Assembly: GCA_017656305.1 (NCBI GenBank) | Contig: JACDOG010000019.1 | Coordinates: 1 to 39,440 of the forward strand | DNA: 39,440 nucleotides | Direction: 5' to 3' | Origin: Thermoanaerobacteraceae bacterium | GTDB taxonomy: Bacteria > Bacillota > JADQBR01 | Shown here: positions 32,052 through 33,943 of the stretch, in pieces | Numbering within the stretch: position 1 is the stretch's first letter | How the letters are laid out: every line of letters starts with the position of its first letter | Notes under the pieces: generated by a model | Database searches by the model: none | Told to the model about the DNA's origin: nothing | The model's input: only the letters and a program-made list of their open reading frames with translations | Translations under genes and position numbers: made by a program

Positions 32052-32076
32052 AAAAAAAAAAGCACCTTATGGTGCT
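32052..32076 (-). terminator. terminator of the S1-domain gene, with the stop codon in its loop
   Basis: Minus strand AGCACC, loop ATAA, GGTGCT, followed by ten T. The loop holds the TAA stop codon of the S1 gene. Confidence 0.9.
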
Positions 32077-32471
32077 CTGTAATTTCCTCTGCCGCGACCG
32101 CCGCGCCTAGTATCGTTATGACGCCTTAAGTCCTGCTGTCTTTCATCACTTTCCTTTAAAAACTTCGCCAATTTATCTTCAAAAGACATGTTACTCTGCT
32201 TTTGCTTTCTGCTACCCGTCTTGTAAGGCCTGTAGTTAGGATCCGCCTGTTTGATAGACAACCCAATTTTACCGTTTTCGTCAATGTTAATTACTTTTAC
32301 CTTAACCCTATCACTTTCCTTTACATAATCTTTTACATCCTTGACGTACGCATCCGCAACCTCAGAAATGTGTACCAGGCCTGTCTTGCCTCCGGGGAGT
32401 TCCACAAATGCACCAAACTTGGTAATGCCGGTAACTACCCCTTCAAGTATGTTGCCAACAGCAATTGCCAT
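32067..32471 (-). CDS. S1-domain RNA-binding protein, YabR-like
   Basis: 134 residues: one S1 OB-fold domain (about 4-72, with GVVTGITKFGAFVELPGGKTGLVHISEVA) followed by a basic, Arg/Gly-rich tail ending RRGGRGRGNYRAP, which should add RNA affinity. The ortholog YabR occupies the same place next to divIC in B. subtilis. Start ATG fixed by the conserved MAIAVG beginning; the AGGAGG signal is about 15 nt upstream, longer than usual. A perfect-consensus promoter (32513-32541) drives it, so strong vegetative expression is expected. Confidence 0.93.
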   Translation of the reverse strand: MAIAVGNILEGVVTGITKFGAFVELPGGKTGLVHISEVADAYVKDVKDYVKESDRVKVKVINIDENGKIGLSIKQADPNYRPYKTGSRKQKQSNMSFEDKLAKFLKESDERQQDLRRHNDTRRGGRGRGNYRAP

Positions 32472-32512: not shown

Positions 32513-32541
32513 ATTATAGCCTAGTACAATCTTACTGTCAA
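32513..32541 (-). promoter_or_regulatory. perfect-consensus sigma-A promoter of the S1-domain gene
   Basis: Minus strand TTGACA (32536-32541), exactly 17 bp, TATAAT (32513-32518), starting 5 bp past the divIC stop codon. Both hexamers match consensus at every position. Confidence 0.9.
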
Positions 32542-32546
32542 TAAAC

Positions 32547-32942
32547 CTAGTCACGAATGTCCCTATTGCTGTCCGTTTCCCGAAGGGGTTTTACGTCTCC
32601 CGGCAGTGCCGGTACCAGCACCTTTTCACCAGGTTTGACTAGCCCCAGTTCTTCCCGAGCAAGCTTTTCTATATAACTATCGGTCTGCACCAGCCGCAGT
32701 TTTTCCTGCAGGGCCCGGTTTTCCTGCTGCAAGATTTTCAGTTCCTGTACTAAAGCCGCCTTCTTGGTGTTTAACTGGTAGATTTTATAATAAACCTGCC
32801 CAAAAGAAAACAGCACATAGCCCAATATAAATATCAGCAGCAGCGACCCGGGCTTCCAGCGAAACCGCCAGCGCCGCTTGATTTTTGGCTTAGGCTGCGG
32901 GAGCTGGTACGTTTCGTAAACACAATATTTGTACGCTTTCAT
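32547..32942 (-). CDS. divIC: septum formation initiator DivIC/FtsB family
   Basis: Bitopic divisome protein. 131 residues: basic cytoplasmic tail (KPKIKRRWRFRWK), one membrane segment (about 32-50), then an extracellular leucine-zipper-like coiled coil (about 55-92, LVQELKILQQENRALQEKL) and the conserved YIEKLAREELGLVKPGEKV region. Synteny with B. subtilis divIC supports DivIC over FtsL. ATG start with AGGAGG 11 nt upstream, inside the end of the preceding HTH gene, 3 bp away, so both are coupled. Confidence 0.92.
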   Translation of the reverse strand: MKAYKYCVYETYQLPQPKPKIKRRWRFRWKPGSLLLIFILGYVLFSFGQVYYKIYQLNTKKAALVQELKILQQENRALQEKLRLVQTDSYIEKLAREELGLVKPGEKVLVPALPGDVKPLRETDSNRDIRD

Positions 32943-32945
32943 AAA

Positions 32946-33170
32946 CTATTCTTCCTCCTCCCGCCCAAAGATGCCCAAGGTATCCCCGGGCAGTACAATT
33001 ACCACCTCGTACCCTTTGGAACGAGCACGGTGCAAAAGAGTGGCCACCGAGCTAGTAGACAACCCCAGTTTCCTGGCAATCTCTTCAGAGGAATGGCCCA
33101 TTTCTTTTAACGCCACTACCTGTCTTTCCCGAAAGCTTAACTTTTCCACACCACGCAGTTCTATTTTCAT
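32946..33170 (-). CDS. small HTH protein (sigma-70 region 4 / LuxR-type)
   Basis: 74 residues, essentially one helix-turn-helix: LSFRERQVVALKEMGHSSEEIARKLGLSTSSVATLLHRARSK (written here only in part: SFRERQVVALKE, then SSEEIARKLGLSTSSV) reads as sigma-70 region 4 or LuxR-type. No receiver or other sensor domain. The C-terminus ends in an acidic EEEE. ATG 33170 with GGGGATAACT upstream; the longer frame from 33227 is made of DnaA-box repeats and is not coding. It precedes divIC by 3 bp. In related spore formers a similar small gene sits between yabQ and divIC. Confidence 0.8.
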   Translation of the reverse strand: MKIELRGVEKLSFRERQVVALKEMGHSSEEIARKLGLSTSSVATLLHRARSKGYEVVIVLPGDTLGIFGREEEE

Positions 33171-33172
33171 AG

Positions 33173-33246
33173 TTATCCCCAGATTTGTCCACAAATTATC
33201 TACAAATTGTGGATAGTATGCTGACATTCCTTAATTTCTATCCACA
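33173..33246. promoter_or_regulatory. cluster of five DnaA-box-like 9-mers
   Basis: TTATCCCCA (33173), TTGTCCACA (33185), TTATCTACA (33196), TGTGGATAG (33208, reverse) and CTATCCACA (33238): each matches TTATCCACA at eight of nine positions. The first four start 11-12 bp apart, one helical turn. They cover the region directly before the small HTH gene and its ribosome binding site. Confidence 0.78.
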
Positions 33247-33293
33247 ATCGGAAATGTCCTGCCTTATAAGCAAATTAAATTAACACAAAATGT

Positions 33294-33322
33294 AAAAAAA
33301 TAATCCTCTTGGCAAAAGAGGA
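33294..33322 (-). terminator. yabP-yabQ terminator
   Basis: Minus strand TCCTCTT, 5-nt loop, AAGAGGA, followed by TTATTTTTTT, about 80 bp past the yabQ stop. It separates the sporulation unit from the HTH-divIC unit. Confidence 0.88.
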
Positions 33323-33400
33323 CTACAATTTTGCTACAAACCTTATAATATTATTTGTGGGAAACTGCCATTGCTCTTTCATTTTCAGGAATGGATAAAG

Positions 33401-33916
33401 TCAAGATTTGGGGCTTCTGCGGATAAATTCCCTGAGCCGGTGCTTCAAGCCACGCACCTTACGTTTTAGTAATCTTGTTACTCCGCCGAACAACCCGTTG
33501 AATTTGTAAAGAACTAGCGTTATCAATCCCAACGGATAGCTCAGTAGCTTTTTTGCAAGCCTTACCGGCACCATCAGAATTCGCTTGGTGACACGAAACA
33601 CCTTGCCTGTAAGGCGAAACAACTGGTGCCACTTGCGCAGAATATACCTGCTGAAAAACCTGTAATAGCAATAGGCACCGACACCCATTCCCAGCAGAAC
33701 ATAAAAGCGCACTTCACCCCAATTTACGGCCAGCAAACCGTAATAGGCTATCACCGTAACAATAATCCAAACAAAAAAATCACACAAATGGGTAACAATT
33801 CGGGAGGGTTTCAGGAGCCAGCGCAAAGCCCGGTAAAAATCAAAGCAAAAAGCTATGGCAATACCAATTACTGCAGTCCAGAAAAAATAGTAAAATTGTT
33901 GAACCACCGGTATCAT
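33401..33916 (-). CDS. yabQ: spore cortex biosynthesis protein YabQ
   Basis: Membrane protein needed for cortex formation. 171 residues: hydrophobic segments in the first 90 residues (VQQFYYFFWTAVIGIAIAF and two more), then a strongly basic, amphipathic C-terminal half (KLLSYPLGLITLVLYK, many Arg and Lys). ATG at 33916 with GGGGAGGG 5 nt upstream. It follows yabP by 27 bp, as in B. subtilis, and shares its sigma-E-like promoter. Confidence 0.9.
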   Translation of the reverse strand: MIPVVQQFYYFFWTAVIGIAIAFCFDFYRALRWLLKPSRIVTHLCDFFVWIIVTVIAYYGLLAVNWGEVRFYVLLGMGVGAYCYYRFFSRYILRKWHQLFRLTGKVFRVTKRILMVPVRLAKKLLSYPLGLITLVLYKFNGLFGGVTRLLKRKVRGLKHRLREFIRRSPKS

Positions 33917-33943
33917 GTCAGCCCTCCCCCGCAAAGCAGCATG

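Follow-up and report, generated by a model that had tools for sequence, protein, structure and literature searches.

Introduction

The promoter of sda in B. subtilis is among the described systems closest to the locus studied here. There, DnaA boxes occupy the promoter of a small gene related to sporulation, and DnaA functions as a transcription factor (PMC4447404, PMC8203912); it controls sda through these promoter boxes, with ATP preferred (PMC4447404). In E. coli oriC, arrays of weak sites 2 bp apart are filled from strong boxes (PMC6727663), and the DnaA of Thermotoga maritima pairs best on boxes of the same orientation 2 bp apart, and on inverted boxes too (PMC10316083). A further relevant system is BldC of Streptomyces, a small developmental DNA-binding protein with direct-repeat sites of variable number (PMC5859096).

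This study addresses a cluster of DnaA-box-like words before a small helix-turn-helix (HTH) gene and divIC, described in an earlier note on the window, that is, on the whole 39,440-nucleotide stretch of DNA that was analysed. Like sda and the other DnaA targets listed in PMC8203912, the locus has boxes at a promoter, but neither this HTH gene nor divIC is on that list. It differs from sda in its unrelated HTH protein and in the activating role of DnaA at sda, and also in its strict 11-bp leader array and sigma-H-type promoter, neither of which is described for sda in the sources read. With the oriC arrays of E. coli and T. maritima it shares a strong box accompanied by weaker boxes with 2-bp gaps, and the tolerance of an inverted box (PMC6727663, PMC10316083). 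Unlike those arrays, it sits in a gene leader away from dnaA, and its base preferences differ from those of oriC boxes. If the HTH protein is the reader, the likeness would be to BldC, but the HTH protein is of the LuxR / sigma region 4 type and falls outside the MerR-like winged-HTH family of BldC. DnaA boxes at a regulated promoter are of a known kind, as in sda (PMC4447404, PMC8203912). The open-licence literature searched yielded no oriC-like 11-bp array in an HTH-divIC leader, and no paper combining DnaA, divIC, helix-turn-helix and DnaA boxes.

The Box Cluster and Its Neighbourhood

Five words with 8-of-9 identity to TTATCCACA had been reported at 33173-33246, and all five are present (Table 1). 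Their start-to-start steps are 12, 11, 12 and 30 bp. The window's genome contains 954 sites with at most one mismatch to TTATCCACA in 2.70 Mb, or one per ~2.8 kb. The earlier note had held that a similar density in shuffled intergenic DNA would speak against the cluster. When the intergenic region 33171-33400 was shuffled 20,000 times with its dinucleotides preserved, the richest 74-bp segment reached three boxes once, two boxes 46 times and never five; these shuffles, together with those of the 110 leaders described below, rule out a chance cluster. Coding constraint is ruled out as well, since the array is intergenic and only a sixth word, TTTTCCACA at 33142 within the HTH coding sequence, is coding. 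This sixth word exists as described, but it encodes the conserved V8-E9-K10 and recurs at the same place in few orthologs only. The likely Shine-Dalgarno, GGGG, overlaps the start-proximal box (TGGGGATAA in the sense of the gene), and the CCCC of that box may therefore belong to the ribosome-binding site. The fifth box is also found in the sister genome L010.

Table 1. Positions of the cluster and surrounding features in the window
Feature	Position	Strand	Basis or remark
S1-domain gene, downstream of divIC	32067..32471	-	PF00575
divIC, next gene of operon	32547..32942	-	PF04977, 5.5e-18
Small HTH gene, 74 aa, ATG at 33170	32946..33170	-	Pfam Sigma70_r4_2 1.2e-11, GerE 1e-6
Array unit nearest gene, CTGGGGATAA	33173..33182	-	DnaA-like TTATCCCCA at 33173 (+); overlaps likely Shine-Dalgarno
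Array unit TTGTGGACAA	33185..33194	-	DnaA box TTGTCCACA at 33185 (+)
Array unit TTGTAGATAA	33196..33205	-	DnaA-like TTATCTACA at 33196 (+)
Array unit CTATCCACAA	33207..33216	-	inverted DnaA box, CTATCCACA at 33208 (-)
Sigma-H-like promoter AGGACAT ... GAAAT	33234..33260	-	sequence; N18 between AGGA and GAA
Fifth box TGTGGATAG	33238..33246	-	CTATCCACA at 33238 (+); in promoter spacer, outside 11-bp register
Terminator-like hairpin, yabQ / HTH gene boundary	33300..33326	-	sequence
yabQ, upstream neighbour	33401..33934	-	PF09578, TIGR02893

The downstream genes had been read as a small HTH protein and a divisome protein, and the Pfam matches agree, with the HTH protein being of the sigma region 4 / LuxR type. 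Its orthologs begin at the same methionine as the window gene. The protein model has a mean pLDDT of 90, with a short strand on each side of the HTH; the folds most like it are those of LuxR-type domains and of sigma region 4, with no match below E = 0.001. Sporulation genes surround the cluster. The order on the minus strand is yabN, HU (named from reading its translation), an S4-domain gene, a spoIID-like gene, yabP, yabQ, the cluster, the HTH gene, divIC, the S1-domain gene and a ppx-like gene, with spoIIE further along. A perfect sigma-70-type promoter, TTGACA-N17-TATAAT, is located before the S1-domain gene (32513-32541, minus strand), which therefore probably has its own vegetative promoter.

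Sigma-H-Type Promoter

Sigma-H promoters are known for AGGA and GAAT elements at a fixed spacing. By this consensus, such elements are present in the orthologous leaders: AGGA-N17-GAA occurs in 73 of 110, with other spacings being less frequent (N14 in 3, N15 in 1, N16 in 4, N18 in 15, N19 in 6 and N20 in 9), and N17 or N18 is found in 83 of 108. We read this pattern upstream of the array as a sigma-H promoter. The window copy has N18 with GAAA, and one box lies in its spacer. Sigma-H itself is encoded in the window's genome (TIGR02859, 382.7 bits, C11:20866-21459). A promoter of the AGGA-N17-GAA type also precedes divIC in 15 of the 18 genomes without a detected HTH gene (L269-L286), so sigma-H control of divIC would be wider than the HTH-array module and may be general in the phylum. 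The module sits between this predicted promoter and divIC. A link of sigma-H to divIC was not found in the open-licence literature by title and abstract.

Conservation of the Leader across the Phylum

An HTH ortholog is present in 155 of 398 phylum genomes, with one match each at the cut-off used, and 388 candidate stretches in the GTDB genome set encode a relative. The named carriers include Moorella thermoacetica, Pelotomaculum, Desulforamulus and Thermosyntropha. Among the 110 loci whose upstream regions were compared, divIC lies downstream of the HTH gene in 104, YabQ upstream in 88, and the S1-domain gene is present in 75. Conservation upstream of the HTH gene in relatives, proposed earlier as a check, is borne out, and many bacteria of the spore-former type keep the element there. 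The last 110 bp before the genes contain 254 boxes with at most one mismatch to TTATCCACA, against 6.2 in shuffles of the 110 regions, with the exact TTATCCACA as the commonest word. At least one box is found in 95 leaders and at least two in 86 (each out of 110). Boxes are densest, at ~30 per kb, within the 50 bp preceding the start codon; elsewhere their density is mostly <1 per kb. When one locus per family is taken, at least two boxes remain in 32 of 46 families, so close relatives do not produce the enrichment. Several boxes at a promoter, above chance and conserved, are expected of a DnaA-controlled promoter, and this is the pattern of these leaders.

Architecture of the Array

The earlier note had missed three features: that the array is strictly spaced at 11 bp, that it includes weak TTGTA units, and that its base preferences are unlike those of oriC boxes. 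On the coding strand, [TA]TGT words are spaced by 11 bp (220 pairs), 22 bp (149), 33 bp (80), 44 bp (32) and 55 bp (20), while every other spacing in the range 3 to 69 has at most 9 pairs. The pitch persists with one locus per family, and boxes in both orientations share one register. Numbered outward from the gene, units 1 and 2 are good boxes in 78 of 99 and 66 of 96 chains, respectively, and an inverted box occupies position 3 in 56 of 96; units farther upstream are mostly weak TTGTA types, with a mean of 2.4 to 3.3 mismatches. The order is thus strong boxes beside the ribosome-binding site, often an inverted box, and then weak units back to the sigma-H-type promoter. Weak same-orientation sites 2 bp apart beside strong boxes, which is the rule for oriC-type DnaA oligomer arrays (PMC6727663, PMC10316083), are what these leaders contain. 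A one-strand motif search of the leaders returned TTGTnnAnAA; a two-strand EM search returned low-information motifs only. Inverted boxes 3 bp apart could pair in a leader RNA hairpin, a reading set aside because many leaders have same-strand units only. One leader (L077, G124) carries a perfect 11-bp tandem repeat of CTTGGGATAAG at roughly -120 to -50 relative to the HTH start, as if slippage had expanded the array; two good boxes lie upstream of the repeat.

Specificity of the Array

The earlier note had also proposed a genome scan for similar clusters. In pattern searches, the two-unit array pattern matches the window's genome exactly once, at 33185-33205. The four-unit pattern gives 25 matches in 398 genomes, of which 18 are at the HTH promoter; of the remaining seven, two are copies of a single unrelated site and five come from HTH-less genomes, mostly simple tandem repeats. 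With a looser pattern the picture is the same in 48 genomes, and nearly all array matches in the searches of 48, 32 and 398 genomes are at the HTH promoter. The looser pattern has a few other matches, all in genomes without the HTH gene, located near oriC and ahead of a corA-like and an indolepyruvate oxidoreductase gene. Clusters of DnaA boxes, some with 11-bp spacing, were seen before corA-like and indolepyruvate oxidoreductase-like genes in L288 (G226:C1:217700-219700) and L287 (G297:C1:81500-83500), respectively, both from genomes lacking the HTH gene.

No array was found upstream of divIC in the 18 genomes without a detected HTH gene, except in L282 (G386:C8:19450-20650). Here an HTH remnant, MKIELRG-stop, stands directly before divIC behind a decayed array; judged by this remnant, it is a natural loss of the HTH gene. 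The cluster is not an oriC located at dnaA or dnaA-dnaN, and a second origin is ruled out, as dnaA lies on contig C26 with its own boxes.

Other clusters were noticed. One is directly downstream of a tsaD/gcp-like gene, identified from its translation (L123:2297-2445; G000:C10:47296-47444), and a DnaA cluster at gcp is known in B. subtilis (PMC4447404). Another consists of three exact TTATCCACA words between comF-like and ribosome-hibernation-factor-like genes (L122:2602-2662; G000:C4:77601-77661).

Which Protein Reads the Array

The arrangement suggests that DnaA, or the HTH regulator itself, controls the HTH-divIC genes at the start of sporulation. Our leading proposal, on which we are evenly divided, is that the cluster would be a platform for an ATP-DnaA oligomer, oriC-like, in the leader of an HTH-divIC operon driven by sigma-H, with a probably repressive effect. 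DnaA would be anchored by the strong boxes beside the ribosome-binding site, upstream of which an inverted box often stands, and the weaker 9-mers with 2-bp gaps (11-bp pitch) would let the ATP-DnaA oligomer extend head-to-tail toward the promoter. We infer DnaA as the binder, and bound DnaA would most likely block RNA polymerase and so repress the operon. Levels of the HTH protein and DivIC would then increase only while ATP-DnaA is scarce or displaced, for example when initiation has stopped and sporulation begins. The pitch and the strong-to-weak order copy oriC arrays, and by this analogy we count them for DnaA. Additionally, position 8 is T in GG units and C in CC units (p = 5e-22, with sites treated as independent though the genomes are related), which counts for DnaA because such coupling is expected of DnaA boxes in two orientations. 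The tie of DnaA to division or sporulation suggested earlier is plausible on these grounds, and the sigma-H-type promoter strengthens it, but the base preferences leave room for a second reader. Exact TTATCCACA is the leading word, yet the variants differ from those at oriC of the same genomes: TTGTCCACA makes up 62 of 257 boxes in leaders versus 2 of 189 at oriC, and leaders almost lack TTATTCACA, the variant most frequent at oriC. Inverted boxes in leaders keep G3, with the coding strand reading TTGT (48 versus 13; at oriC 0 versus 26; p = 8e-13, sites again treated as independent among related genomes), and their spacing is 3 bp, against 4 bp as the best in T. maritima. Fourteen leaders lack any box at the one-mismatch limit but hold 25 11-bp pairs versus 0.3 expected (3 of the 14 have none), and the f96 genomes among them have normal oriC boxes. 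The variant differences, G3 retention and box-less arrays would be in keeping with a second reader, for which the HTH protein is the simplest candidate.

The weights given to rival readings are judgements, not calculations. It is possible, though we lean against this serious rival, that the HTH protein uses the array as its own operator, binding WTGTNNANAA units head-to-tail and controlling the sigma-H promoter of its gene in BldC-like fashion; in that case the DnaA boxes would be look-alikes or a second layer on which DnaA and the HTH protein compete. The array follows the HTH gene in the 48-, 32- and 398-genome searches and is not seen before divIC where that gene is absent, but such linkage is equally expected under DnaA control, and the uniqueness of the array to the HTH gene does not separate the two proteins as binders. 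Units without DnaA character hold the 11-bp register, and the G3 kept in inverted boxes is a sign of a second, directional constraint. The modelled strands flanking the HTH could serve oligomerisation, and BldC, by analogy, binds direct repeats as head-to-tail multimers (PMC5859096). Against this, the coupling of positions 5-6 and 8 gives exact DnaA boxes in both orientations, beyond what one directional reader would need, and the pattern search found no other target of the HTH protein. Covariation of its recognition helix with unit type gave no signal, the helix being nearly invariant by eye across orthologs, which precludes such covariation.

It is improbable that another tandem-repeat regulator, such as Spo0A or an OmpR-type response regulator, reads the array with an incidental likeness to DnaA boxes. 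Direct repeats can serve as binding sites for response regulators, as discussed in PMC5859096, but an array nearly unique per genome is unlike the regulon of a global regulator, and exact TTATCCACA is the commonest word. Spo0A boxes were rejected, as their core TTGTCG is not enriched in leaders. Titration of DnaA near the origin, raised in the earlier note, is very improbable as the main role. The near-origin position is borne out, with the HTH gene ~60-210 kb from dnaA in relatives that have both on one contig. However, the element lies exactly between the promoter and ribosome-binding site of one gene, a position needless for titration, and it is confined to that leader and not kept before divIC where the HTH gene is missing.

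We return to DnaA as the preferred reader, and to an extension that we consider unlikely. The HTH protein may be a second, sigma-H-induced reader of DnaA-box-like repeats that competes with DnaA for the array. Competition of this kind would form a replication/asymmetric-division switch, and the HTH protein may also act on the DnaA boxes of oriC during sporulation.

Significance

To our knowledge, how sporulation is tied to replication in spore formers outside Bacillus is largely open. Within ~90 bp, the element described here joins a sigma-H-type promoter, an oriC-like DnaA-box array and a regulator-plus-divIC operon, and it does so in most of the 46 sampled families. It also places an 11-bp array of oriC style outside an origin. 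Carriers that can be cultured include Moorella thermoacetica, and the element is a direct, testable candidate for the link between sporulation and replication.
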